Source of the DNA: Pedobacter cryoconitis | GTDB lineage: Bacteria > Bacteroidota > Bacteroidia > Sphingobacteriales > Sphingobacteriaceae | Reading direction: 5' to 3' | Assembly (NCBI RefSeq): GCF_014200595.1 | Contig: NZ_JACHCG010000005.1 | Span: 248,001-312,000 of the forward strand | Length of the DNA: 64,000 nucleotides | Shown: piece by piece, positions 4,544 through 46,620 of the stretch | Layout of the letters: every line of letters starts with the position of its first letter | Position numbering within the stretch: the first letter of the stretch is position 1 | The notes under the pieces: model-generated | What the model saw: the letters and a program-made list of their open reading frames with translations, nothing else | Told to the model about the DNA's origin: nothing | The model's database searches: none | Made by a program: the position numbers and the translations under genes

Positions 4544-5131
4544 TTAATTCGTTGTTTTTAGCTTATTGATAAACGCTATGAATTTTGCATCTGCATAATT
4601 GGCAGCCCCTGCTTCATTGTAAGAAATCCTTCCTTCTTTATCAAATACAACTGTTGTGGGCAATGACCCTTTGAAAAGTACTTCAGGGATTTCGCTGTCT
4701 ACTGCATAAACAGGTAATTGATACCCCTTTTTATCCATAAATTTTTGTGCTTTTGGCAATTGACTATCTGCATCAACCAGAATGAAAACTACATCTTTAT
4801 CATTCTTAAATTTTTCGTGCAGGGCATTTACACCCGGCATCTCAGCCAGACATGGAGGGCACCAGGTTGCCCAGAAATTAAGAAAAATGACTTTTCCTTT
4901 CAATTCTCCCAGGTCAATAACCTTTCCGCTGATGTCTTTAAATTTAATTCCGGACAAATTACCCGCAGCATTAACCTGTTTATCCACTACAGCAGTATCA
5001 GGTCTGAAAAACCCAATTTTCATTAAGCCTTCCAGTACCAGCGCCTTTGCAGGCGGTACAAATAACAGCACCAGGAATAATACAATCAGAATCCCGTTAA
5101 AAATATTCTTTCGGTTAAGAATCTTATTCAT
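4544..5131 (-). CDS. TlpA-family membrane-anchored thiol-disulfide oxidoreductase
   Basis: A 195-residue protein with one N-terminal membrane segment (about residues 12-27) and a thioredoxin fold of the TlpA/ResA type. The active site is WATWCPPC with Cys91 and Cys94, followed by the family's EMP. It is probably held in the inner membrane facing the periplasm, reducing disulfides, for example for cytochrome c maturation or protein repair. The cis-Pro loop is seen as SLPTTVVFD. Divergent from the S9 peptidase gene; the small acidic protein gene follows on the same strand. Confidence 0.88.
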   Translation of the reverse strand: MNKILNRKNIFNGILIVLFLVLLFVPPAKALVLEGLMKIGFFRPDTAVVDKQVNAAGNLSGIKFKDISGKVIDLGELKGKVIFLNFWATWCPPCLAEMPGVNALHEKFKNDKDVVFILVDADSQLPKAQKFMDKKGYQLPVYAVDSEIPEVLFKGSLPTTVVFDKEGRISYNEAGAANYADAKFIAFINKLKTTN

Positions 5132-34043: not shown

Positions 34044-36473
34044 TTATTTCAACCTTCCTTTTAAGTCTTCACTGGCCGTACTTCGTTGTTTACCACCTGT
34101 TCCATCTCCACCAAAGCGGTAACTGAAAGAGAGCACTACAGCGCGGCTGTCGGGTCTGCTATGACTGTAAGTTGAGATATTTCCATACGTAGCAGCTTGC
34201 TTAATTTGTCTGCTCTGAAAAATATCATTGACCAGTAATTTAAGTGTCCCCCTGTCCTTAAGGATGTCTTTCTGGCCACCCGCAGAGACCATATAATAGC
34301 TCTTTGTCGTAAACACACCCGAAACTACTTTCGATTTATACATTCCGCTCAGCTCAGCCTTCCAGCCATTTCCCAGTTTAAAAGTATTTTGAGAATCAAA
34401 TGTAAAACTTGTCCCTTGAATACGCTGTTCTCCCTGGGGAGCTGCAATAGAAAAATCATTTCTGAAAAGATTAGCAAACTGCGTTCCTGACCACCATTTG
34501 GTAAAATCTACAGACGCCGTAAAACTGATTCCATAATTTTTAAAAGTTGCCAGGTTCTCAGGCCGCTGGAAAGCAAGATTACTATCTCCCCCCACCAGGC
34601 TGCTGATTACATCTGTGCTGGAATTGTAAGTCAATGTTGTATAATAACGGGAACGAAAGCCATAGCTCAGTTCAAAAGCATTCACAATAGATGGGCTCAG
34701 ATAAGGATTTCCTTCCTCATAAGAAAACGGATCCATATAAACCCGGAAAGGGTTCATATCCCAATAGCTGGGACGCTCTATCCGCTTGCTATAACTCAAC
34801 TGCACCCTGTTTTTCTCATTTATTTCCTGCGTCAGGAATACACTTGGAAATAATTTAAAATAACTTCTTTTAACTAAAGAGTCTGTGGTAAGCTGATGCC
34901 CTTGTGTATAAGTATATTCACCCCGCAGCCCTGCCTGGATACTGAATTTTCCAATATCCTTCTTCAAGTTGACATAACCCGCCTGAATTTGTTCCTTATA
35001 AATAAAATCATTGCTTGTAGAATAATCAGGAACATAGACTCCGTTTTGTAAAGTATCGTATTTCAGCTTATTCATCATACGAACCACACTTCCTTTCCAG
35101 CCAGCTTCCAGTTTTCCCAATTTACCCGCAGGCAGTACATAATCAATTTTCCCTACATAAATGTCATTATCAGAAGGAAGATCACCAATTCTGGATTTTA
35201 ATGCAGGCAGAAACATATTCTGCGTCCCCATGAACCTCGTATCCAACTGCTGATCCATTTTAGAAAAGTGAGAAACATAATCCAGATCTGCCGTTAATTC
35301 ATGTCCTTTAGCATTGAAAAGGTGCTTATAATTAATATTATAAAGCATGTCAGTCCATCTTTCCTTACCTGTAGTATTCGTATGTGCATCCCATATTACA
35401 TCGCCTGTTTCATTATTGTATAACCGGTTCCTGGTAGGCTGGACAGATGGATATTTACCAACCCCTCCATTTACCATGAAACCCAAAGTATTTTTCTCAT
35501 TCAAAAACAGATCCATTCCTGCCTGGAAGTTATGCGAACGTAGTTTCGCTTTTTCATCCATTCGCTGAACCGAGCTGCTATACGGAGTTTTTCCTGCCCC
35601 CATTCCATCCTGGTAAAAGTCTCTTTTCACCTCATCAGACCCTTTTAAATCCTGGTAGAAATAATTATAATTCCCAAAAAAGCTCACCTTTTCTGTCCGG
35701 TAATTCAGGCTTGTCCCTCCACCAAACCGGGCCGATCTTCCGGCACCACCATTCGCAGAGACAGTCCCATTTAAACCTGCCTTTGTTTGTTTCTTTAAAA
35801 TAATATTAACGATGCCACCATTACCCGCAGCATCATATTTAGAAGACGGGCTTGCCATAATTTCAATTCTGGAGATCGTGTTCGAAGCAGTTCCTCTCAG
35901 TAAATTTGCCAGTTGATTTCCTGAAAGGTAAGTCGGCTTGCCGTTAATCATCACCATAGTGCCTGGCCTGCCTTTTAAACTAAGCTCTCCGCTTTCGCTC
36001 ATGGTTACACCCGGAGCTTTATTCAACAACTCTAAAGTTGTTCCTCCTTCGGCCATGACACTATTTTCTACATTCATGATCATCCGGTCAAGCTGTTGTA
36101 CAATTGTCGCTTTATTCGCTTTAATTTCTATTGTATTTAAAGCCAGCTGTTCGGCAACCAGCCGGATACGCCCAAGATTAGAAACCAGTGCGGTACCATT
36201 TAGCTCCAAAGGTTCACTCATATAATGCTGGTAACCAATAAAGCTGATTTTAACAAAATATTTGCCCTTTGGCACATTGGAAAGATTAAAATAACCAGTT
36301 GAATCACTCACTACAGCTTTAACTTTCGTAGAATCCGCTGCACTCATTAAAAAAATCCCAGCATAACTTACCGGTTTTTGATGTTCGTCCGTTAAATGAC
36401 CTCTCACCTGATGCGTCTGCGCATGTAATTGAGCAAACAAGAAGAAACTGAATAAAGTCAGGATTATTTTCAT
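34044..36473 (-). CDS. Outer-membrane beta-barrel TonB-dependent receptor (OMP_b-brl_3 type)
   Basis: 809 residues with a signal peptide (cut near LHAQ, residue 19) and an N-terminal carboxypeptidase-like domain (VRGHLTDEHQKPVSYAGIFL). A plug-like region follows (GGTTLELLNKAPGVTM, GKPTYLSGNQLANLL), then a long barrel. This is the outer-membrane beta-barrel family common in Bacteroidota, which is related to but distinct from classic TonB receptors. Its start overlaps the stop of the PepSY gene by four bases (ATGA), tying it to the iron-uptake locus. Confidence 0.85.
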   Translation of the reverse strand: MKIILTLFSFFLFAQLHAQTHQVRGHLTDEHQKPVSYAGIFLMSAADSTKVKAVVSDSTGYFNLSNVPKGKYFVKISFIGYQHYMSEPLELNGTALVSNLGRIRLVAEQLALNTIEIKANKATIVQQLDRMIMNVENSVMAEGGTTLELLNKAPGVTMSESGELSLKGRPGTMVMINGKPTYLSGNQLANLLRGTASNTISRIEIMASPSSKYDAAGNGGIVNIILKKQTKAGLNGTVSANGGAGRSARFGGGTSLNYRTEKVSFFGNYNYFYQDLKGSDEVKRDFYQDGMGAGKTPYSSSVQRMDEKAKLRSHNFQAGMDLFLNEKNTLGFMVNGGVGKYPSVQPTRNRLYNNETGDVIWDAHTNTTGKERWTDMLYNINYKHLFNAKGHELTADLDYVSHFSKMDQQLDTRFMGTQNMFLPALKSRIGDLPSDNDIYVGKIDYVLPAGKLGKLEAGWKGSVVRMMNKLKYDTLQNGVYVPDYSTSNDFIYKEQIQAGYVNLKKDIGKFSIQAGLRGEYTYTQGHQLTTDSLVKRSYFKLFPSVFLTQEINEKNRVQLSYSKRIERPSYWDMNPFRVYMDPFSYEEGNPYLSPSIVNAFELSYGFRSRYYTTLTYNSSTDVISSLVGGDSNLAFQRPENLATFKNYGISFTASVDFTKWWSGTQFANLFRNDFSIAAPQGEQRIQGTSFTFDSQNTFKLGNGWKAELSGMYKSKVVSGVFTTKSYYMVSAGGQKDILKDRGTLKLLVNDIFQSRQIKQAATYGNISTYSHSRPDSRAVVLSFSYRFGGDGTGGKQRSTASEDLKGRLK

Positions 36474-37579
36474 GCGGTTGTTATTTTATTTTTTTTCGTT
36501 TTTTTCCTTTTACCCCACCACACATAAAATCCTGTGATTGGTAAACTAGCACAGATCAGGCTGGTTATAAAAGCTATAATTTTAGTGAACAGCCCACCAA
36601 CAGCACCAACATGCAATGCATAGTTAGACTTGCGGAGCCAATCTGCAAATGCAAGATCAGACAGTCTTTTTCCTGAGTAAGGCAATGCCTCTATCGTGAC
36701 AGGATCAAAGTAAAGATCTCTCCAGCTGCCATTGTGCATATCTGTACAGGCATAAACCGCCTCATCATCATGGTCAGGAATAGAAACTATAATGGCATTC
36801 TTATCGTGGACTGCGATCTCTTTTCTCACTTTATACCAGACCTTATCCGAGCTGTAAACAATCGGATCTGGCGGTGGCAATATTTTAATTTCCTGCTGTT
36901 TAACCCTTTTGGCCATACTTCCGCCACTCAACCAGTAAACACTCTTTGAGAACCAGGAAAAACTCATTACAAGCCCCGTACAGGCCAGTATAACGGCAAT
37001 TAACAGTGAATAAAACCCCAGTACATTGTGCAGATCATAGTTGAGTCTTTTGAACTTTGCATCCCACTTTATTTTAAAGCTCCTGTTGAAATTCGTTTTG
37101 CTCCACTTTTTCGGATACCATAAAATTAATCCGCTGATGAGCAGCAGAAAAAAAATGAACGTTCCCCAGCCAACAACGGCCTTACCAACTTTTCTTCCCA
37201 TCCAAAAATTCCGGTGTCCCTCATCCATGAAATGAAAGAAAGCATCATGATCAGCTACAGCCAGCACTTCACCACTAAAAGGATTCATATAAACCGTAGA
37301 ATCAGAATTAATAGTTACATGTGCAGATTTATCTAACCCATGATACCAGATACTCGCTGCTTTTTTTCCAGGCAATGCTTTAGCTAAACGCTCAGCCAGC
37401 TGAGAAGGAGGGAGATACTTACTTTCCGCCTCCGGTTTTACGCTCAGATATGGATACAGCAGGTTATTTATTTCCTGCTCAAATACTAAAATGCAGCCTG
37501 TAAGACTAACAACTACTACAATAATACCTGAAGCAAGCCCCAGCCACAAATGGAGCCAGGCATTGATTTTTTTGAACAT
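36470..37579 (-). CDS. PepSY-type inner-membrane protein (XusC-like, siderophore/iron reductase family)
   Basis: 369 residues with four membrane helices (about 12-33, 130-155, 187-208, 335-355). The first begins with the PepSY_TM motif WLHLWLGLASG. Large periplasmic parts lie between the helices. Family members are linked to siderophore use and to reduction of iron at the inner membrane; XusC of Bacteroides thetaiotaomicron is one. It lies downstream of the DUF4374 gene with a terminator-like hairpin between, and overlaps the next barrel gene by four bases. Confidence 0.85.
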   Translation of the reverse strand: MFKKINAWLHLWLGLASGIIVVVVSLTGCILVFEQEINNLLYPYLSVKPEAESKYLPPSQLAERLAKALPGKKAASIWYHGLDKSAHVTINSDSTVYMNPFSGEVLAVADHDAFFHFMDEGHRNFWMGRKVGKAVVGWGTFIFFLLLISGLILWYPKKWSKTNFNRSFKIKWDAKFKRLNYDLHNVLGFYSLLIAVILACTGLVMSFSWFSKSVYWLSGGSMAKRVKQQEIKILPPPDPIVYSSDKVWYKVRKEIAVHDKNAIIVSIPDHDDEAVYACTDMHNGSWRDLYFDPVTIEALPYSGKRLSDLAFADWLRKSNYALHVGAVGGLFTKIIAFITSLICASLPITGFYVWWGKRKKTKKNKITTA

Positions 37580-37596
37580 TGGGACGGAATAAAAAA

Positions 37597-37624
37597 GGGC
37601 CGCTTACTCGTGGTAATACGGCCC
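37597..37624 (-). terminator. Terminator between the DUF4374 and PepSY genes
   Basis: Stem GGGCCG/CGGCCC with inner TTAC/GTAA, followed on the minus strand by TTTTTTATT. It would end or reduce transcription after the DUF4374 gene (37641-38873). Confidence 0.75.
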
Positions 37625-37640
37625 AACAAAACACAATATT

Positions 37641-38873
37641 TTAATACGTTAATTTCGAGATAGCAGTTACGCCAGCTGCACCTTCAATATGAACACCTCT
37701 TGTTACAGTTCCATTGTCTGCATTAATAATGTATACATAGTATTCACCTGCACTGTCCTCCATTACGTAGTTGATTGTTTTACCATCTGGTTCAGCATAT
37801 ACGATTAACTTAAATCCACCAAATTCATGTACAGGAACTCCTGGAACCGGGGTAACCGTATTGTTAAATACATCAGCAATAATCATCTTGATTTTTCCAC
37901 CAGTTGCTTTGGCATCAGTATAAACCGCCATCAGGAATTTACCTTTACCGATATATTCACCTCTGCAGATTTTTGATCCTACTGCTGCTTCAACATTAAA
38001 GAAATAAGATTTATCGAATTGTTCTGCTCCTTTTTTGATACGAACAATACCAGACGGTTTTGTAGATGTTCTTTGTTCACCATCACCAGATGCAGTAGAC
38101 CAGGCATAAGTATCCCCGTTCTCAATTTGCTTAAGGCCCTGCTGACTGCTCCAGTCTCCGATAAAACCAGTACGGTCATCAGAGATTGTTTTTTCGTATT
38201 TAAGCTCAGGATAACTGAAAACAGCCACCCATGTACTGTCTAAACTACCATATTCACCTTCGTAAACCCGGCCACCAGGAGTATGTTTAAACTTATAGTA
38301 AGGAAGATATATTTTATTATCTACCTCAAATAAACCTGTCCATACAGCATTGAAACCTGTTCCTGTTATTTTCTTTAAATCTGTTGTACTTCTTCCCGAA
38401 AGTTGAAGATTGATCGCGTCAAAACGGTATAATTCTCCAACACCACTTGAACGCGGATCACCACCACCTACCCAGAAATCATTACCGACTTTACCAGATA
38501 CACCGGTGCGAAAGGTCGTTACTGCTCTACCGGCTTCAAATATTTTACCCTGTTCATTCAGACGAAATGGCCTTACCAATCCCTGTTCATTATAAGCTTG
38601 TGCAAACACTGTATTATTCTGGACGATAAAAGACCAGGCATCTACCTCTACACCATTATTAGTTGATGAGACACCTCCTTTGGTAATATCATCCGTACTT
38701 ACAATATAGGTTGCAGCGCCATCACCCTTCCCAGTATAAACAAATACATATTTTGAACGCCCTGGCTTCCCTGGATCTACAGGAGCATCCGGAGTTTTAT
38801 CCTTGCTGCAAGCACCTAATAGTACCGCCATTCCTAACATACCTGTTATTAAAAAATTAGTAGTCTTCTTCAT
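37641..38873 (-). CDS. DUF4374 lipoprotein (XusB-like siderophore-binding protein)
   Basis: 410 residues with a lipoprotein signal (lipobox LLGAC, Cys22, then SKDKTPD). The body is a predicted beta-propeller of the DUF4374 family, with VAVFSYPELKYEKTISDDRT shared in pattern with the other DUF4374 gene in this locus. XusB of Bacteroides thetaiotaomicron, a surface lipoprotein that binds ferric enterobactin, belongs to this kind of locus: receptor, DUF4374, PepSY. The order here is the same, so binding of a ferric siderophore is likely but not proven. It ends at a terminator. Confidence 0.85.
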   Translation of the reverse strand: MKKTTNFLITGMLGMAVLLGACSKDKTPDAPVDPGKPGRSKYVFVYTGKGDGAATYIVSTDDITKGGVSSTNNGVEVDAWSFIVQNNTVFAQAYNEQGLVRPFRLNEQGKIFEAGRAVTTFRTGVSGKVGNDFWVGGGDPRSSGVGELYRFDAINLQLSGRSTTDLKKITGTGFNAVWTGLFEVDNKIYLPYYKFKHTPGGRVYEGEYGSLDSTWVAVFSYPELKYEKTISDDRTGFIGDWSSQQGLKQIENGDTYAWSTASGDGEQRTSTKPSGIVRIKKGAEQFDKSYFFNVEAAVGSKICRGEYIGKGKFLMAVYTDAKATGGKIKMIIADVFNNTVTPVPGVPVHEFGGFKLIVYAEPDGKTINYVMEDSAGEYYVYIINADNGTVTRGVHIEGAAGVTAISKLTY

Positions 38874-38921
38874 TGTTTTATTGATTTAATTATTAAAAGC
38901 TGATTTAAGCGGGCACCCTGA

Positions 38922-41366
38922 TCAGAGGCCTCTTTTTTTAGAAAAATAATAGCGGAGTTTGATGTTAAAAGCGCGGCTGGGCTTTTGTAATGCATAATTA
39001 TCAAACAGCTCAGCATCAGTTAAATTCAGACACTCTACTGCGATATTATATTTTCCACCTCCCATTGCATAGATCATATTGACATCGTGTGCCCACTGGG
39101 TTGGTACAACCATTTTAGTCTCCTTAGAGCCCTGTCCGGGCCAGTACAGGTAAAATTTATTGACAAATAATACGTTATAGCCCAAAGTAAGCTGGTTACC
39201 TTTTTTCAGGACATTATTGAAATAAAAGCTGCCATTTGCATTTCCAAAAAGGTAGGGGGTATTAGGAATACGGTCTCTGTAAATGACACTTCTGGTTTTC
39301 GAGAGTTCACCTGAAATCAGTCTGTCGAATTCATTGTCGTTTCTTAAATTCTGATAAGTGAAATTAGTATTCAACGTGAACAACTGCTTATAAGCATAGC
39401 GCAACTCTGCATCTATACCACGATTGGTAACTTTACCCTCATTGCTAAACTTGCTTAAATATCTGCCATTACTTGCGCCAGGCAATACATTAGCCCGGAT
39501 ATAATCATTCGCATTACGGAAAATATAATTAGCCTGAATTTGAAAGAAATGTGTTTTATCTATTTCTGTAGTATAAGTCGCCCCAATATTAATATTATCA
39601 CTACGCTCGGGCTTCAGTTCCAGATTTGCAACTGTCAGATATACATTACCAAAAAACTCATCATTATCAGGCAGACGGTAAGCTTTTTCGTATGAAGCCT
39701 TTAGCTGAAGATTTTCTGTTAAGAAATAAGATCCCGCAAACCCGTACCCTTGCTTAGATAAATCCGAGCTTCGCGAGAGGATAGTATAAGTAGTTACTTT
39801 AGTAGAATTATCAAAATCCCTGACTACGTTATTACTCGTAATATGTTGATTGTACTGTTTGATAAAGGCAGTAAAATTCAGTTTTTCATTAAGATTTAAG
39901 CGATAACCTAAACCTAAGATATTCTTCCTGGAAATCTGAGGCTGCTTGTCCTGCCGGTTATCCGGATCAAAACGGTTCACTCCTTTTCTGTTAAAAGTCG
40001 AAAACTGGTCATTAAGAGACAAAGAATGACGGTCATTTATGGCATAATTCAATCCTGCATTAGCCAGACCATTGTTGTTTTTAAACTTAAAGTCTGCCAG
40101 ATCACCTTCTCCACCAATAGCCTTAGGATCGTTTCGGTTTCTGGGTACAGAAGATCCATCCCAGGTAAATTTTCGGGGAACCGTATCCACATTACGCTCC
40201 TCTCCAAAATTAAAATTTCCATTCACCCTTAAATCCAGTCCTTTAACAAATAAATCCTTCTTCACATATTTTAAAGTAGGCTGTATTGTATTTCCGGATT
40301 TCCATCTTCCACCAAATACGTCTTCCATCCGGTTTCCGACCTGTATATCTGCTTTGTTTTGTCCCAAAGTAATCCCTACCAATAACTGATCAGCATATTT
40401 TTTACCGGATACACCAATATTTGCGACTACAGTTTCATTGTGATACCGATCATGAAACCTGCGTACTCTTGTCGGCGTATTTACTCCGGTGATACTATCT
40501 GTCACCCCTCCGGTTACCCAGTAATTATTATCAGAGTAGTTCTGGAAAGCACTTAATTGTGCCGTAAAACCAGATTTAGCTGTATAACCAGCATTGACCG
40601 AACTTTTATGCGTATTAAAAGAACCATAAGAATAAGAAGCATCTACATAAGTTCTGGGATCTGTGTTGGTCACAATATTTACCGCACCACCCAAAGCATC
40701 TCCACCAAGCCATACCGGAACAACTCCTTTATAGACTTCAATCCTGTCAGCAAAATTCACCGGGATATTATTCAGCTGGAAAGAAGATCCAAAATTCTCC
40801 ATCGGCATACCATCCAGAAAGAACTTCACCTGGTTACCAGAAAATCCATTCAGGCTAAAAGTCATATTTGATCCTACTCCACCAGATTCACGGACCCGGG
40901 CACCAGAAACCCTGTTCATTACCTGTCCAAGGTCCATTGTTGTATTGTGAAGCGTCTTTGCGTCTATAGAGATTACATTATAAGCCTGCCTGTTCGTTTT
41001 TTGATTTTTGCTGAAGCCAAGAATAGCAACTTCATCAATCTCTCTTACATCCTGCTTAAGTCTGAAACTAATAACAGTCTCTCCTTGTGCGACAACCGTC
41101 AAGCTCTTCTCTTCTTTAGCATGCCCCAGTGAATGAATTTTCAGCTGATAAGTACCCGCAGCTAATCCAGAAAAATGGAATTCTCCCTTTCCATCACTGA
41201 CTGCCGTTTTATTTAAGGGTGATAATTTGATAATTGCGCCCGGAATGGCTTCCGACTGGTCATTATATATAGTTCCTTTAATCGTGCCGTTCTTGCCACT
41301 CTGAGCCTGAACAAAAAAAATCAGGGCGCACAAAATACCCGTCAGAAAAATTTTCTTAATTTGCAT
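38922..41366 (-). CDS. TonB-dependent siderophore receptor (XusA-like)
   Basis: 814 residues with a signal peptide (cut near FVQAQ, residue 22), a carboxypeptidase-like regulatory domain (about 26-110) and a plug (ISIDAKTLHNTTMDLGQVMN, FFLDGMPMENFG, YKGVVPVWLGGDALGGAVNI). A 22-strand type barrel follows, ending in an aromatic-rich strand (FNIKLRYYFS). There is no STN signalling domain before the plug. It is preceded by a 5' leader with hairpins and by an ECF-type promoter motif, and followed by the DUF4374 and PepSY genes, as in xusABC. Confidence 0.9.
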   Translation of the reverse strand: MQIKKIFLTGILCALIFFVQAQSGKNGTIKGTIYNDQSEAIPGAIIKLSPLNKTAVSDGKGEFHFSGLAAGTYQLKIHSLGHAKEEKSLTVVAQGETVISFRLKQDVREIDEVAILGFSKNQKTNRQAYNVISIDAKTLHNTTMDLGQVMNRVSGARVRESGGVGSNMTFSLNGFSGNQVKFFLDGMPMENFGSSFQLNNIPVNFADRIEVYKGVVPVWLGGDALGGAVNIVTNTDPRTYVDASYSYGSFNTHKSSVNAGYTAKSGFTAQLSAFQNYSDNNYWVTGGVTDSITGVNTPTRVRRFHDRYHNETVVANIGVSGKKYADQLLVGITLGQNKADIQVGNRMEDVFGGRWKSGNTIQPTLKYVKKDLFVKGLDLRVNGNFNFGEERNVDTVPRKFTWDGSSVPRNRNDPKAIGGEGDLADFKFKNNNGLANAGLNYAINDRHSLSLNDQFSTFNRKGVNRFDPDNRQDKQPQISRKNILGLGYRLNLNEKLNFTAFIKQYNQHITSNNVVRDFDNSTKVTTYTILSRSSDLSKQGYGFAGSYFLTENLQLKASYEKAYRLPDNDEFFGNVYLTVANLELKPERSDNINIGATYTTEIDKTHFFQIQANYIFRNANDYIRANVLPGASNGRYLSKFSNEGKVTNRGIDAELRYAYKQLFTLNTNFTYQNLRNDNEFDRLISGELSKTRSVIYRDRIPNTPYLFGNANGSFYFNNVLKKGNQLTLGYNVLFVNKFYLYWPGQGSKETKMVVPTQWAHDVNMIYAMGGGKYNIAVECLNLTDAELFDNYALQKPSRAFNIKLRYYFSKKRGL

Positions 41367-41493
41367 TACTTTTAAATGATAAACGATTTAGAGGTAACCC
41401 CATCTGGGGATGAGTCATACAGGTACGAACTGTATGGCTCTTTTTTATTTTTTCATATATTCTACCGCTGGTTTCCCTGCTTCTACTTATACT
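41367..41493 (-). promoter_or_regulatory. Structured 5' leader of the TonB receptor gene
   Basis: Between the ECF-type promoter motif (41494-41520) and the ATG lie two hairpins. One has arms GAGCCATACAG/CTGTATGACTC (complements of 41430-41440 and 41412-41422; one mismatch) around TTCGTAC. The other is CCCC-AGAT-GGGG around 41396-41410. They may affect mRNA stability or translation. I found no match to a known riboswitch. Confidence 0.4.
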
Positions 41494-41520
41494 ATTATCA
41501 TAAGTCGGGCTTTCCCCCTA
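41494..41520 (-). promoter_or_regulatory. Putative ECF sigma promoter before the TonB receptor
   Basis: On the minus strand: TAGGGG, 11 bases, TTATGATAAT. The same layout (18 of 27 bases identical) occurs before the anti-sigma gene at 43434-43460. It lies about 130 bases upstream of the receptor ATG. Recognition by the local sigma factor is inference. Confidence 0.45.
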
Positions 41521-41561
41521 CGGCTATTTAGAATAATTTTAAATAAAATAGAAAAAAGATT

Positions 41562-42749
41562 TTAATCTGCTAATTTATCGATGCGGATTATCTCTCCATT
41601 TACAATTACGCCACGCTTAAGTGTCCCCGAGCGGAGATTATAAATCCAGATTTGACTTTTATCATTCTCCTGATAAACTGACAGATAGGCGAAATTTTCA
41701 TCCGCAGTAACGTTCATTATAAAATTAAGCATCACAGGAGGCATCGCCAGCTTAATCTTTTTTTGCCGGCGAAGATCCAATAGCTCGTACCGGGAAATTC
41801 TTTTCAGCATATAATCATCAAACTGACTGATAGCCGAAGACTCTACAATTCTGGTTACCGCCAGCCCATGTCCTAAATTATAGAGCGTATAAGCCTCCTG
41901 AGCGCCATGGCTCCCTAATTTAAACAAGTAATCCGGATCAAATGTCTTCGCCCCCTTATTCAGCCTTAAAATAGCCGAAGGAGCAGTAGGGTGATTACCT
42001 GTTCTGCCACCAGGTTGCCCTAATACATAAGCCGTATCATTTAACACGATAGAATTGGAACTCCAGATATTATAACTGCCAGGCCAGGTAGTCCTTTTAT
42101 CCTCAAAACTACTTTGCAATTTCAGCTCAGGAAAGCTAAAAACAGCCGTATGAACCGCATCATCCGGTGGATTAACATGCTCCCGCATAAAACCCTTTTG
42201 AAAAGTATAGAAAATAAAAAGCTTGTCCTTAACCAGCTGAGCAGACATACCCGTGTAATTAACCCCCTTTGGTGCTGGCGGAACAGCTAATAATCCATTC
42301 CGTAATATTTTCATCTCCTTCAAATCGATTTCTATATACCGGAACTGCTCGTCAACCACACTACCCAATAAAATGGTATGGTCATTAATCCAGTTTACCC
42401 AGCCAGAATAAGGCTCCCAGGGAATCGCTTTCATATCAATTGACTGTTCCAGCACTAAACCATCTGCCGTTGCCCGGTACTTCAGCAAACTATGATCAGA
42501 CCTGTCCATCAGCAAATAACAATGCTCATAAATGGCAATCGTCATTCCAGGCACATCTATTCCTTTAGCCTCAGGCTTTCCTTCCTCCATGGAATAAACA
42601 GGCATAAAATGCGTTACATCCTTCTCCTGATCATAAACAATCAGCCCAAAATTAAAGTCATTCTTTTCCATGTGCCCACTACAAGCGCACATCAAAAGAA
42701 ACACAGACAAAAATAAAAGCTTAAAATTACCAGGTAAATACCGATTCAC
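41562..42749 (-). CDS. Second DUF4374 lipoprotein, next to the anti-sigma gene
   Basis: 395 residues with a lipoprotein signal (LLMCAC, Cys23) and a DUF4374-like beta-propeller. It shares with the 37641-38873 protein the pattern AVFSFPELKLQSSFEDKRTT and the APSAILRLNKGAKTFDPDY block. The N-terminal third differs more. It starts 10 bases after the anti-sigma stop, so it is co-transcribed with it, while the receptor behind it has its own leader and promoter motif. It may be a second siderophore-binding protein or a ligand sensor; the second is inference from position. Confidence 0.8.
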   Translation of the reverse strand: MNRYLPGNFKLLFLSVFLLMCACSGHMEKNDFNFGLIVYDQEKDVTHFMPVYSMEEGKPEAKGIDVPGMTIAIYEHCYLLMDRSDHSLLKYRATADGLVLEQSIDMKAIPWEPYSGWVNWINDHTILLGSVVDEQFRYIEIDLKEMKILRNGLLAVPPAPKGVNYTGMSAQLVKDKLFIFYTFQKGFMREHVNPPDDAVHTAVFSFPELKLQSSFEDKRTTWPGSYNIWSSNSIVLNDTAYVLGQPGGRTGNHPTAPSAILRLNKGAKTFDPDYLFKLGSHGAQEAYTLYNLGHGLAVTRIVESSAISQFDDYMLKRISRYELLDLRRQKKIKLAMPPVMLNFIMNVTADENFAYLSVYQENDKSQIWIYNLRSGTLKRGVIVNGEIIRIDKLAD

Positions 42750-42759
42750 ATCAATGGAT

Positions 42760-43413
42760 TTAGAGGTTAAAATCTCTTTTCATATTTAAGGCCAGTACCG
42801 GTGGCATATCCATGAGATTACGATTTTCTACCATAACCAGTTCATCACCTTTAAAAAGATAATGTGCCAGTAAATAAGATCTGCCCTTGCGCAGGTTAAG
42901 TTTTTTAGACCGGAATTGTCCTTCATTATTTCTGGAAAGCACCAAAATTTCTTTGTCAGCAGAAGTCGTATTGCGCACCATCATGTTCCCTGAAAAACTG
43001 ATATCCAGTGTATCATTTTTCTGCTGTACCAACCTGACCATTCCATTTTGTCCCAGGCGGATTTTTAACCCATCAAACTCCTTTTCCATAGCTGGTCTGG
43101 ACTGATCATAATGAAATACCATGAACTGATCCTTTGAAACACTCCGCTGAAAACCAAAAAAATAAAATATAACCAGTAAACTCGCAGCAACCAGCAATTT
43201 AAACACCTTACTTTTAAAAAGCTGCGAATGCTCATACTTTAAATTTTCTGCACTGATCTTAGCCCATACCTCGCTCTGCAACGGTATATTCTCCCCGGTT
43301 AATTCTTCTGCATCAAAATCATCAGCTTCCCCTTCCATCCATTTTTCATAGATTTTAAGTTCTTCCTCAGAAGCATTCCCCGATAAGCATTTTTTTAATA
43401 ATTCCGGATTCAT
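42760..43413 (-). CDS. Short FecR-like anti-sigma factor
   Basis: 217 residues with a cytoplasmic N-terminus (MNPELLKKCLSGNASEEELK, the usual start of FecR-type anti-sigma factors), one membrane helix (about 71-88) and a periplasmic part of about 130 residues with a FecR-like beta region. Full FecR proteins of Bacteroidota have 300 or more residues and a C-terminal receptor-contact domain; that domain is absent here. It follows the sigma gene after 74 bases that contain a sigma-type promoter motif. Confidence 0.75.
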   Translation of the reverse strand: MNPELLKKCLSGNASEEELKIYEKWMEGEADDFDAEELTGENIPLQSEVWAKISAENLKYEHSQLFKSKVFKLLVAASLLVIFYFFGFQRSVSKDQFMVFHYDQSRPAMEKEFDGLKIRLGQNGMVRLVQQKNDTLDISFSGNMMVRNTTSADKEILVLSRNNEGQFRSKKLNLRKGRSYLLAHYLFKGDELVMVENRNLMDMPPVLALNMKRDFNL

Positions 43414-43433
43414 AGCGTGTCCTGCTGATTGTA

Positions 43434-43460
43434 ATTATCACAACCTATCCTTATCCCCTA
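43434..43460 (-). promoter_or_regulatory. Putative ECF sigma promoter before the anti-sigma gene
   Basis: On the minus strand: TAGGGG, 11 bases, TTGTGATAAT, 20 bases before the ATG of the anti-sigma gene. It matches the motif before the TonB receptor (41494-41520) in spacing and in both blocks. It fits an autoregulated promoter of a FecI-type sigma factor. Confidence 0.45.
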
Positions 43461-43487
43461 TGTCAGGGCAGATAAAGACTAATAATT

Positions 43488-44042
43488 TTAAGATAATGGA
43501 TACTTATCGAGTCCCTTACGGATAAACTTCAGCGCTTTTGTCAATTGGTTTTCGACTGTTTTTTCAGAGATCAGCAGATTACCTGCAATTTCCTGGTTAT
43601 TCAGTCCCTTTTCTCTGCTTAATACATATACCGCTTTACAGCGCTCAGGAAGACAATTGACTAACTTATCAATATCCTCCCTTAAAAACCGGTACAGCAC
43701 TTCCTGCTCCGTATGGTTGTTATCACTCACTGTTTGTCTCAGCAGCAATTCATCCATCTTCTTTGCTTTACGGACTTCATCACTATAAATCCGGCTGATC
43801 CGGAAACGTACCGCACGGACTAAATAATTTTCTATCGTATCTTCACTCAGCAACAAACTATCCTTACGCTGCCAAATAGACGTAAAAACCTCTTGTACCA
43901 CACCTTCTGCGCGATAAGCATCTCCCAGATATTTATAGCCCAGTTGATATAACTTTTTCCAATAGCGTTCATAAAGATGAAAAAAAGACGTTTCATCAAT
44001 CCTAAGCTGATTCTTTAAATTATCCGGTGATTGTTCAGACAC
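43488..44042 (-). CDS. ECF RNA polymerase sigma factor (FecI-like)
   Basis: 184 residues with sigma region 2 (YLGDAYRAEGVVQEVFTSIW) and region 4 (LPERCKAVYVLSREKGLNNQ, followed by the DNA-reading helix ISEKTVENQLTKALKFI). This is the small FecI-type sigma of Bacteroidota, which activates transport operons when its anti-sigma factor is signalled. It heads the minus-strand iron-uptake locus and has its own housekeeping-type promoter upstream. Confidence 0.92.
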   Translation of the reverse strand: MSEQSPDNLKNQLRIDETSFFHLYERYWKKLYQLGYKYLGDAYRAEGVVQEVFTSIWQRKDSLLLSEDTIENYLVRAVRFRISRIYSDEVRKAKKMDELLLRQTVSDNNHTEQEVLYRFLREDIDKLVNCLPERCKAVYVLSREKGLNNQEIAGNLLISEKTVENQLTKALKFIRKGLDKYPLS

Positions 44043-44064: not shown

Positions 44065-44094
44065 CAAAGTTAGGATAATTTAGAACGATTCAAA
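44065..44094 (-). promoter_or_regulatory. Bacteroidota sigma-A promoter for the ECF sigma gene
   Basis: On the minus strand: TTTG (44094-44091), 18 bases, TAACTTTG (44072-44065), an exact TAnnTTTG box. Transcription would start about 20 bases before the ATG at 44042. Confidence 0.7.
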
Positions 44095-44184
44095 ATGGCG
44101 GAATGTGTAACGATTTTATGCAGAGCGATATTTAATAACCCATTAAGCTTGTCAGTTAAAATAATTTTTAGATTTTTATAGTAC

Positions 44185-46620
44185 ATGGAAAACAGAAGGG
44201 ATTTTATCAAGAAGGCATCTTTATTAACCGGTGCCTTAAGTCTTTCAACAATTTTACCAGGATCAATACAAAGGGCCTTAGCCATCGATCCTGAACTGGG
44301 AACCACTTTTCTGGATGCAGAACATATCGTTTTCCTGATGCAGGAAAACAGATCTTTCGATCATGCCTTTGGTTCTTTAAAAGGAGTCCGGGGCTTCAAT
44401 GACCCCAGGGCGATCCGCCTACCTGATGATCATCCGGTTTGGCTGCAAACCAATAAAAAAGGAGAAACATATGCCCCTTTCAGGTTAGATCTGAAAGATA
44501 CCAGGGCAACCTGGATGAATTCCCTGCCACACTCGTGGGAAAATCAGGTTGATGCCCGTAACCATGGTAATTTCAACGGATGGCTTGAAGCCAAAAGATC
44601 CGGGAATAAAGATTACGCAGACATGCCCCTTACCATGGGCTATTATAACAGAGAAGACATCCCATTCTATTATGCCCTTGCAGATTCGTTTACAGTCTGC
44701 GATCATAGCTTTTGCTCTTCGCTGACTGGTACAAGTCCTAACCGCACCTTTTTCTGGACAGGGAAGATCAGAGAAGAGCAAAACGATACCGCCAAAGCTC
44801 ACCTCGACAATGGAGACATTGATGGATCGGAGCGCCTTTCGTGGGGCACTTTCCCTGAGCGTCTGTCTGCTCACGGCATAGACTGGAGAATCTATCAGAA
44901 CGAGCTCAGTGCAGGTGTTGGCTTTGAAGGAGAACAAGACGACTGGCTGGGGAACTTTACAGACAATCCAATTGAATTTTTCCAGCAATACCACGTTAAA
45001 CGACACCCTGAACATATTTCATGGTTGAAAAAAGCAACAGCAGATTTAGCTGCCAAATTAAAAGATAAACCAGATCCGAAACTGCAAAAGACACTGGAGC
45101 GCTATCAGAAGGATCTTACCTTTCTGGAAAGCAATCCATTAGAATCTTTATCCCCCGAACAACAAGACTTACACCAAAGAGCATTTACCACCAATAGAAA
45201 TGATCCCGATTTTCACCAGTTAGAATCCATTACTTATCAAGACCAGGGTAAAGAAAGAACTACAGCTATTCCCAAAGGGGATGTATTACATCAGTTCCGC
45301 ACAGACGCAGATGCAGGCAAGTTACCGGCAGTTTCCTGGCTGGTTGCACCTTGCAACTTCTCTGACCATCCCGGCGCCCCCTGGTATGGCGCATGGTATG
45401 TATCAGAAGCCATTGATATTTTAACAAAAAATCCAGAAGTCTGGAAGAAGACAATTTTCGTGCTTACCTACGATGAAAATGATGGTTATTTTGATCATGT
45501 ACCTCCATTTACAGCTCCTAACCCAAAAGACCCGTCTACAGGAATTGTTTCCAAAAGCCTCGATATCTCTGCCGAGTTTGTACAAAAAGGACAGAGTAAA
45601 AGAGAAAGCCCTGTAGGTTTAGGTTACAGAGTGCCTATGGTTGTAGTCTCTCCATGGACGCGCGGAGGCTATGTAAACTCACAAGTTTTCGATCACACCT
45701 CATCTATTCAATTTTTAGAACACTTTTTAAGCCACAAAACAGGGCAGAAGATCCATGAAGAAAACCTGACTTCCTGGCGAAGGAGTTTGTGTGGTGACCT
45801 TACTTCTGTTTTCAGGCCCTATAACGGAGAGAAGATTCCATTGCCAAAAACAATAGAAAGAAAGCCCTTTATCGAAGGAATCCACAAAGCTCAGTTTGCC
45901 AAATTACCAGATAACTTTAAAAAATTAGATCAGCAGGCTATAACAGCGGTCACCAAAAACATGAAAGGCTCGATATACCTTCCAGCGCAGGAAAAAGGAA
46001 TTAAGCCAGCTAACGCCATTCCTTATGAGATTTACGCCCAGGGAGGATTAAATTCAGCCAAAAAACAATTTGAAATCGCCCTTACTGCTGGTCATAAATA
46101 CTTCGGCAAACAGGCCAGTGGTGCTGGCTTTAACATTTATGCCAAACACAAAAACTGGTCTTTTACAGCGGCAGCAGGAGATACGCTTACCTATCAATGG
46201 CCACTGGATACATTCGATCAGCAGCAATATGACTTGAAAGTATACAGTGTTAATGGTTTTTTCAGACACTTTAAAGGAGATATCAATGATCCTGAAATCA
46301 TGATTTCCCTGCATTATCAGAATGAAAAAGGAAAGATTGATCAATTAAACGGGAATGTAATCCTGGAAATTACGCGGCTTAAAAAAGGAAGACCACTTCA
46401 GTTTACCCTTACAGATAACGCTTATCAGCAGCAGTTAGCTGAAGTTTCAATGACCGCAAAAGAAACATCAAAACGTGTTCCTCTTGATTTAAAGCAGAGC
46501 CACAACTGGTACGATTTTACAGTTAAAGCAAGTGGGCACCCCGCTTTCAGTCAGCAGTTTGCCGGCCACGTAGAACATTCCGGAGAAAGCTTTACAGATC
46601 CCCTAATGGCGAATGTATAA
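44185..46620 (+). CDS. Phosphocholine-specific phospholipase C (non-hemolytic type)
   Basis: 811 residues. It starts with a Tat signal (RRDFIKKASLL), followed by the phosphoesterase domain with MQENRSFDHAFGSLKGVRGF, TGTSPNRTFFWTG and FVLTYDENDGYFDHVPP. Two C-terminal beta domains of the bacterial phospholipase C type follow (YEIYAQGGLN, FYVN-like repeats). The family hydrolyses phosphatidylcholine and sphingomyelin in the periplasm or outside the cell. The gene diverges from the sigma gene and is followed by a GH20 gene. Confidence 0.92.
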   Translation: MENRRDFIKKASLLTGALSLSTILPGSIQRALAIDPELGTTFLDAEHIVFLMQENRSFDHAFGSLKGVRGFNDPRAIRLPDDHPVWLQTNKKGETYAPFRLDLKDTRATWMNSLPHSWENQVDARNHGNFNGWLEAKRSGNKDYADMPLTMGYYNREDIPFYYALADSFTVCDHSFCSSLTGTSPNRTFFWTGKIREEQNDTAKAHLDNGDIDGSERLSWGTFPERLSAHGIDWRIYQNELSAGVGFEGEQDDWLGNFTDNPIEFFQQYHVKRHPEHISWLKKATADLAAKLKDKPDPKLQKTLERYQKDLTFLESNPLESLSPEQQDLHQRAFTTNRNDPDFHQLESITYQDQGKERTTAIPKGDVLHQFRTDADAGKLPAVSWLVAPCNFSDHPGAPWYGAWYVSEAIDILTKNPEVWKKTIFVLTYDENDGYFDHVPPFTAPNPKDPSTGIVSKSLDISAEFVQKGQSKRESPVGLGYRVPMVVVSPWTRGGYVNSQVFDHTSSIQFLEHFLSHKTGQKIHEENLTSWRRSLCGDLTSVFRPYNGEKIPLPKTIERKPFIEGIHKAQFAKLPDNFKKLDQQAITAVTKNMKGSIYLPAQEKGIKPANAIPYEIYAQGGLNSAKKQFEIALTAGHKYFGKQASGAGFNIYAKHKNWSFTAAAGDTLTYQWPLDTFDQQQYDLKVYSVNGFFRHFKGDINDPEIMISLHYQNEKGKIDQLNGNVILEITRLKKGRPLQFTLTDNAYQQQLAEVSMTAKETSKRVPLDLKQSHNWYDFTVKASGHPAFSQQFAGHVEHSGESFTDPLMANV

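Follow-up and report, generated by a model that had tools for sequence, protein, structure and literature searches.

A 64,000-nucleotide stretch of the Pedobacter cryoconitis genome (assembly GCF_014200595.1, contig NZ_JACHCG010000005.1, positions 248,001 to 312,000; the window, to which all coordinates refer) carries on its minus strand a row of seven genes, which is discussed here as a possible sigma-controlled siderophore uptake locus of the Xus type. The row starts with the gene of an extracytoplasmic function (ECF) sigma factor of the Bacteroidota expansion type (SIG; 43488..44042; TIGR02985 at 1.1e-38, over the cut-off, with Sigma70_r4_2 and r2 domains) and an anti-sigma factor gene (ASIG; 42760..43413; assigned from alignments of relatives), followed by the gene of a DUF4374-type lipoprotein, DUF1, the proposed sensor of the regulatory block (41562..42749; assigned by phmmer, family profile and predicted fold). 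Then come a XusA-like TonB-dependent receptor gene (TBDT; 38922..41366; Plug and barrel domains, STN not found; XusA 9gbc_A at 2.3e-181 over residues 5-809), the gene of a XusB-like lipoprotein of the short length class, DUF2, with the mature start C-S-K-D-K (37641..38873; PF14298 at 4.7e-29, Bacteroides fragilis XusB 9hqe_A at 4.7e-23), a XusC-like PepSY_TM inner-membrane protein gene (36470..37579; PF03929 at 1.5e-63; 7abw_A, presumably FoxB, at 2.7e-9), and, as an accessory member, an OMP_b-brl_3 outer-membrane barrel gene (34044..36473; PF14905 at 4.5e-118). All seven open reading frames (ORFs) lie where the first-pass annotation of this DNA had put them, in the order that it gave. Because the receptor has its best PDB match in Bacteroides thetaiotaomicron XusA and DUF2 in the B. 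fragilis XusB that binds ferrichrome, and the PepSY protein is similar to 7abw, these three members are, judged by likeness, a Xus core, as had been proposed, and the barrel is indeed an addition to it.

Loci with the sigma, anti-sigma and DUF1 genes were gathered in two ways, by DUF1 first and then by the anti-sigma factor, and 118 distinct anti-sigma copies (score above 75, length below 275 amino acids) were counted. A sigma gene lies at most two genes upstream in 115 of them, and a DUF4374 gene adjoins on the same strand in 108, a count biased by the selection of the first loci via DUF1. A further set of 51 loci was fetched with an anti-sigma profile as the sole query; after exclusion of five FecR-type loci (L122-L126), a DUF4374 gene adjoins in 46/46 copies, or in 39/39 without seven copies of the query rows, though the profile itself was built from DUF1-linked loci. 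This set comes from Pedobacter, Dyadobacter, Spirosoma, Larkinella, Emticicia, Mucilaginibacter, Siphonobacter, Sphingobacterium, Pararcticibacter and two unclassified organisms. Anti-sigma profile matches were obtained in 137 of 145 genus genomes, most of the listed ones being weak and confined to the N-terminal half, with full-length members fewer; at E 1e-20 a match was found in 52/301 family genomes and at 1e-25 in 2/395 phylum genomes. DUF1 stands directly after the anti-sigma gene in 103 copies, where the next gene is the receptor in 84, the contig ends in two and another gene call follows in 17; among the latter are a split DUF1 (L116), reverse-strand ORF calls before the receptor (L098, L108, L117) and a receptor on the opposite strand (L118). 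In L041, L095, L097, L099, L101, L106, L107, L110, L169, L182 and L208 there is no such receptor among the next genes listed. The identical seven-gene order recurs in 44 of the 118 anti-sigma loci, so the arrangement is not due to chance, and of 94 loci with a linked receptor, 57 have an OMP_b-brl_3 gene among the four genes that follow it. A second, diverged copy of the locus without the PepSY gene (L043) is present in the same genome.

The seven genes fall into two evolutionary blocks. In a distance correlation test on 73 of 91 loci the regulators and DUF1 were tightly correlated (rho 0.91 for SIG-ASIG, 0.92 for SIG-DUF1, 0.91 for ASIG-DUF1), as were the receptor and DUF2 (0.89), with values of 0.29-0.42 between the blocks and a DUF1-receptor correlation of 0.08 given the anti-sigma factor; such mirror-tree values mean joint inheritance and not contact. 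The tree, computed from 38 of 108 DUF1, 36 of 96 DUF2 and 18 of 21 other DUF4374 proteins, unites 33 of the 38 DUF1 representatives in one clade (support of 100 in the SH-aLRT, an approximate likelihood ratio test), scatters DUF2 among XusB-like proteins from loci lacking an anti-sigma factor of this family, and places the DUF1 type of the window (four rows) outside the main DUF1 clade. A recent tandem duplication of DUF2 was ruled out as the origin of DUF1, since the two occupy different parts of the tree.

The first-pass annotation named two DUF4374 genes, which holds directly for DUF2 by PF14298 and by other routes for DUF1, for which the Pfam scan of the window proteins gave no match of its own. 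Phmmer relates the window DUF1 to B. fragilis XusB at 8e-6, the DUF1 family profile does so end to end (1.2e-23, positions 7-394 of 405), and PF14298 matches 43 of 57 DUF1 relatives. The predicted model (mean predicted local distance difference test score, pLDDT, of 86.7; predicted template modelling score, pTM, of 0.85) has as its six best PDB matches the six B. fragilis XusB chains (E 3.0e-16 to 1.1e-14; template modelling score by query 0.68-0.73), the next match reaching only 3.3e-8. By profile and model DUF1 is thus a full-length DUF4374 propeller, and the suggested check of whether the DUF4374 proteins fall outside the XusB family ended with both matching B. fragilis XusB.

The two lipoproteins differ in their N-termini. 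In Capnocytophaga canimorsus the minimal export signal after the lipid cysteine is, according to passages of PMC5080379, K-(D/E)2 or Q-A-(D/E)2, with the lysine mainly at +3. The lipobox rule used here was loosened once, from a first version that recognised 98/108 DUF1 and 82/97 DUF2 proteins to a second with 106/108 and 95/96, the failures L097, L101 and L116 having a doubtful start or frame. Lysine occupies +3 in 68 of 95 DUF2 but in 3 of 106 DUF1 proteins; it does so also in 20/21 DUF4374 proteins whose loci have no linked anti-sigma factor and in 23/25 SusD lipoproteins of the same genome with a lipobox found (a sample of 30 of 49 matches, in five of which another ORF was picked; SusD are presumed surface proteins). 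When aspartate is allowed as well, the counts are 82/95 for DUF2, 20/21 for the proteins of unlinked loci and 10/106 for DUF1, and among 92 within-locus pairs DUF2 alone has such a residue in 73 and DUF1 alone in two. Lysine at +3 with an acid at +4 occurs in 23/95 DUF2, including that of the window, which does not fit the strict K-(D/E)2, and in 0/106 DUF1. The mean number of acidic residues at +2 to +6 (0.73 in DUF1, 1.24 in DUF2, 0.76 in SusD) contrasts less, so that lysine is the marking feature in this genus. Since this export-like lysine is mostly absent from DUF1 and common in DUF2 and SusD, DUF1 probably stays on the periplasmic face of the membrane.

These data bear on the claim of the first-pass annotation that DUF1 and DUF2 are two binding proteins of one transport system, which is probably wrong: DUF1 co-varies with the sigma and anti-sigma factors and not with the receptor and DUF2, stands beside the regulators even where no receptor is next, and lacks the lysine of DUF2 and SusD. 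The corresponding rival explanation, that DUF1 is a second siderophore-binding surface lipoprotein, for another ligand or as a hemophore-like scavenger, which merely lies behind the sigma and anti-sigma genes, could draw on its full-length relationship to B. fragilis XusB, on the lipid cysteine in 57/57 aligned members and on the minority with lysine or aspartate at +3; nevertheless, a protein that co-varies and travels with the regulators and mostly misses the export-like lysine makes it rather unlikely.

Another alternative takes DUF1 for a ligand-free co-anti-sigma factor which shields the anti-sigma factor from proteolysis, the signal coming from elsewhere, such as the receptor or the iron state. 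The conservation of the trio agrees with it, and there is a precedent in the FoxA signalling domain, which shields FoxR (PMC11637429). It is also favoured by the binding pocket, the ferrichrome-contact positions of B. fragilis XusB being kept in part: Y52 corresponds to tyrosine in 24 of 33 main-type DUF1 proteins, W235 mostly to isoleucine or valine, with tyrosine in the four window-type rows, and W323 to tyrosine in the DUF1 alignments. P223, N227, G247, Y287 and G288 are conserved specifically in DUF1. Retention of the entire propeller fold speaks against a ligand-free role, whereas the occurrence of one DUF1 clade with several DUF2 classes, also raised against it, fits shielding as well as sensing; altogether this explanation is considered improbable.

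The anti-sigma factor has, judged from alignments, a FecR-like cytoplasmic N-terminus, one transmembrane segment and an unnamed periplasmic domain of ~120 amino acids ending with NLMDMPPVLAL, the segment and the two sides being assigned by eye; the window copy gave no Pfam match. Neither FecR nor FecR_C was matched in 57 anti-sigma factors scanned (that of the window and 56 others, out of 118), nor STN in 24 receptors (that of the window and 23 others, out of 97). The FecR-type controls, taken from loci whose anti-sigma factors have 318-323 amino acids and no adjoining DUF4374 gene (L122-L126), gave FecR and FecR_C in 3/3 (L122-L124) and STN in 2/3 (L122 and L123, not L124). Signalling of the FecR type was ruled out on these counts.

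That the sigma and anti-sigma factors belong to this locus, as the first-pass annotation held, finds support beyond neighbourhood in a conserved promoter motif before the receptor genes. In the window a candidate ECF promoter of the receptor operon (GTAGGGG-N15-GATAAT, 41494..41522, minus strand) is the sole site of its pattern in the genome with 0 mismatches, and a second candidate with two mismatches (CATAGGGG...TGATAAT, 43434..43462, minus strand) lies in the SIG-ASIG gap; the motif is conserved before receptors of relatives and precedes 19 distinct anti-sigma genes. For the counts, made on the same loci in which the motifs were discovered, upstreams were thinned for likeness to 75 of 97 receptors and 102 of 115 sigma genes. 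A CTTCGG-N15-GCWAC motif precedes the receptor in 57 of the 75 upstreams, with a spacing of always 15 when 14-16 was allowed, and occurs in 0/102 SIG upstreams. Over 2.54 Mb searched it has 78 distinct sites (before receptors 67, PepSY genes 6, anti-sigma genes 3, farther off 2), against 4 for the reversed control. Receptors from loci without a counted anti-sigma factor have this motif in 11 of 31 cases, nine of which are refetched counted loci (L076, L082, L091, L096, L100, L162, L194, L224, L225), and the remaining two (L042, L073) lie on contigs without an anti-sigma gene, although a different contig of the same genome carries one.

The motif of the window subfamily, TAGGGG-N15-GNNAA, has 50 sites against 20 for the reversed control, distributed among anti-sigma genes (19), receptors (16), PepSY genes (2), OMP_b-brl_3 genes (2), unlabelled genes (5, four of them 111-117 amino acids long) and positions that the rule used counted as far from a gene (6, of which two stand 340-391 bases ahead of OMP_b-brl_3 and one in the window). 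The fuller window pattern with up to two mismatches has in the 6.35 Mb genome two sites, both in this locus, before the receptor and the anti-sigma gene. The receptor loci L050 and L071, which have no linked sigma genes, carry a TAGGGG-type motif; since L215 and L214 are present in their genomes, the sigma factor may act there in trans.

The sigma gene itself is preceded by a probable housekeeping-type promoter recognised by eye (TTTTG ... TAACTTTG, 44065..44095, minus strand), with the housekeeping promoter consensus as the reference, and with a Fur-like half-site TTCTAAAT inside it. Among the 102 SIG upstreams TATATTTG occurs in 67 and TCTAAAT in 68, the shuffle expectation being 1.4 and 6.0. 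At the receptor a Fur-like palindrome TATTTAAAATTATTCTAAATA (41525..41545, minus strand; one of four sites with one mismatch in the genome) overlaps the promoter region. The palindrome TATTTAGANTNANTCTAAATA has 33 genome sites at up to three mismatches against 17 in the reversed control; it was taken as a putative Fur box. When 13 sites were inspected and 10 proteins from 8 sites were scanned, the associated genes were receptors at four sites (L230, L235, L237, L239), a PepSY gene, an IucA/IucC synthetase, a siderophore-interacting protein, an ABC/AraC pair and deoxyhypusine synthase, and no clear gene was seen at L231, L233 and L236. The window SIG upstream has the half-site alone, which is not within three mismatches of the palindrome searched, and the sigma gene of the second copy has a palindrome site with two mismatches upstream. 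Iron control of the locus is proposed from sequence only. The siderophore synthetase gene of the IucA/IucC type lies near its Fur-like palindrome at G000:C4:323407 (L241), so that a siderophore of the strain's own making is possible, and the locus could serve it.

An ordinary iron regulation, in which the sigma and anti-sigma factors relay iron shortage without ligand sensing, as proposed for the Xus system of B. thetaiotaomicron, where XusB is induced by iron starvation alone, its authors suggesting that xenosiderophores are not sensed (PMC13142918), and xus rises 489- to 676-fold in iron-poor medium (PMC10434189), would account for the Fur-like motifs before the SIG and receptor genes but leaves the regulator-tied lipoprotein and the second internal promoter unexplained, and is the least probable of the three alternatives, the more so as several sigma-unlinked Xus loci of the genus, L058-L061, L069, L070 and L075, seem by eye to manage with Fur-like half-sites and housekeeping-type promoters.

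The 5' leader of the receptor messenger RNA (41398..41440, minus strand) may form two hairpins; in the first, both-side changes are kept in 5 of 7 pairs over 20 aligned leaders, not all of which fit. A xusA-type leader hairpin, often with a UUCG-like loop, is common to loci with and without a linked sigma gene (L036-L040, L065, L067, L206, L211, L212; L058, L060, L061, L069, L070, L075). It possibly controls translation or messenger RNA stability; a known RNA was ruled out, as there was no Rfam match in the leader at E up to 5.

Beside the locus, on the plus strand (44185-46620), lies a divergent gene of phosphocholine-specific phospholipase C (TIGR03396); an ORF of equal length is present at this position in L037, not in L036 or L038. 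In L041 and L095 a histidine kinase gene (PF06580, scanned in L041) and a 240-amino-acid gene take the place of the receptor after the trio. A reduced relative of the locus without a linked receptor is seen in L196, L214, L215 and L218 (genomes G171, G058, G059, G177), with L216 similar: sigma and anti-sigma genes are joined by the 111-117 amino acid gene, which has a Fur-type part (PF01475 at 3e-5, scanned in L196 only), and by OMP_b-brl_3, and an ECF-type motif precedes these last genes.

Taken together, the data make it somewhat probable that this Xus system is gated by iron and controlled by the sigma factor, with DUF1 as its periplasm-facing sensor. Gene content, the two blocks, the lack of STN and FecR matches, the promoter and Fur-like motifs and the lipoprotein N-termini are the parts that sequence supports; where DUF1 is located, which ligand it binds, that it touches the anti-sigma factor and which sign the signal has are the parts that we infer. 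In the transport block, surface-exposed DUF2 would bind a ferric siderophore and hand it over to the XusA-like receptor, the PepSY protein would reduce the iron and the extra barrel would serve as an accessory outer-membrane protein. A housekeeping-type promoter, which a Fur-type repressor probably controls, would drive the sigma gene, and the anti-sigma factor would hold the sigma factor. DUF1, a lipid-anchored XusB-type propeller without the export-like lysine and facing the periplasm, would tell the anti-sigma factor, through its periplasmic domain, that ferric siderophore has been imported, and the freed sigma factor would fire the promoter before the receptor and, in the window subfamily, also the one before the anti-sigma and DUF1 genes, giving negative feedback. 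As to its origin, an outer-membrane siderophore-binding lipoprotein could have been duplicated, lost its export mark and become a ligand sensor of the sigma/anti-sigma pair in place of STN-FecR signalling, the block being shuffled as a unit among receptor and binding-protein classes in Sphingobacteriaceae, Spirosomataceae and neighbours and perhaps recruited repeatedly; this history seems about evenly balanced between true and false.

Several results weigh against the sensor reading or its parts. When the anti-sigma factor is split, its periplasmic half tracks DUF1 no better than the cytoplasmic half (partial correlation 0.35 versus 0.41). A single DUF1 clade is weakly rejected (approximately unbiased test, p 0.028), and the DUF1 type of the window may be a separate recruitment. 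The XusB ferrichrome pocket is, as described, kept only in part in DUF1. Few DUF2 proteins have the strict export motif either (6/95, with 0/106 in DUF1), the export mark is assumed in Pedobacter from C. canimorsus, and something other than export may lie behind the conserved SusD N-termini. In the strain's own genome CTTCGG-N15-GCWAC has a single site, which belongs to the receptor of the second locus copy, against 4 in the reversed control, and the two sites of the fuller window pattern compare with 6; the patterns alone are thus not rare, and place and conservation carry the promoter argument.

To the same side belong the ten of 118 anti-sigma copies without an adjoining DUF1 (L067, L196, L214, L215, L216, L218, L219, L220, L221, L223). 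Their nine genomes (G013, G171, G058, G059, G178, G177, G162, G046, G154) all carry DUF1 elsewhere (in genome order L052, L195, L051, L048 with L049, L217, L213, L208, L053 and L222), and six or seven of these distant genes belong to another trio: L195, L217, L213, L208, L053, L048 and L222 each come with a sigma and an anti-sigma gene and therefore need not serve the other pair. With the main DUF1 profile the orphans of L049, L051 and L052 reach scores of 587-604, versus 292-313 with the DUF2 profile; the proteins of L048 and L222 score higher with the DUF2 profile and form a third type. In L049, ~200 bases before position 4632, a stretch resembling both ends of an anti-sigma gene lies ahead of the intact orphan DUF1, which may for this reason be a leftover behind an anti-sigma relic.

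If the sensor reading is true, it would describe a new way to tell available siderophores, via an inward-turned second binding protein and not via a receptor signalling domain. Xenosiderophore sensing, which the authors of the B. thetaiotaomicron study suggested to be lacking there, becomes a testable question in Pedobacter, the promoter motifs offer a means to seek further members, and two copies of the binding-protein gene in a locus of this kind do not necessarily double the range of ligands.

Among known systems, the ECF sigma/anti-sigma pairs linked to SusC/SusD in Bacteroidota have the regulator genes ahead of a receptor and a lipoprotein, the receptor often with STN; the Pedobacter locus shares this order and differs in that STN was not found on the receptors scanned. 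Systems of the FecI type are under Fur-type control, and sequence motifs point to a similar control on top here. As in FecA-FecR-FecI and FoxA-FoxR-FoxI (PMC9249621, PMC11637429), there is an ECF sigma factor, a membrane anti-sigma factor and a receptor operon as the probable target. Unlike in these, STN was not matched on the receptors nor FecR or FecR_C on the anti-sigma factors scanned, and a lipoprotein gene belongs to the regulatory block. In the open-licence literature searched, judged by titles, abstract beginnings and passages, no DUF4374 protein was described as part of a sigma/anti-sigma module. The closest likeness is to XusABC of B. thetaiotaomicron and XusAB of B. fragilis, with the same order of receptor, DUF4374 lipoprotein and PepSY protein (PMC13142918), DUF2 being nearest in PDB to the short, ferrichrome-binding XusB of B. 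fragilis; unlike XusABC, the Pedobacter locus adds to this core the sigma and anti-sigma factors, a promoter motif, a regulator-tied second DUF4374 protein and an OMP_b-brl_3 barrel.

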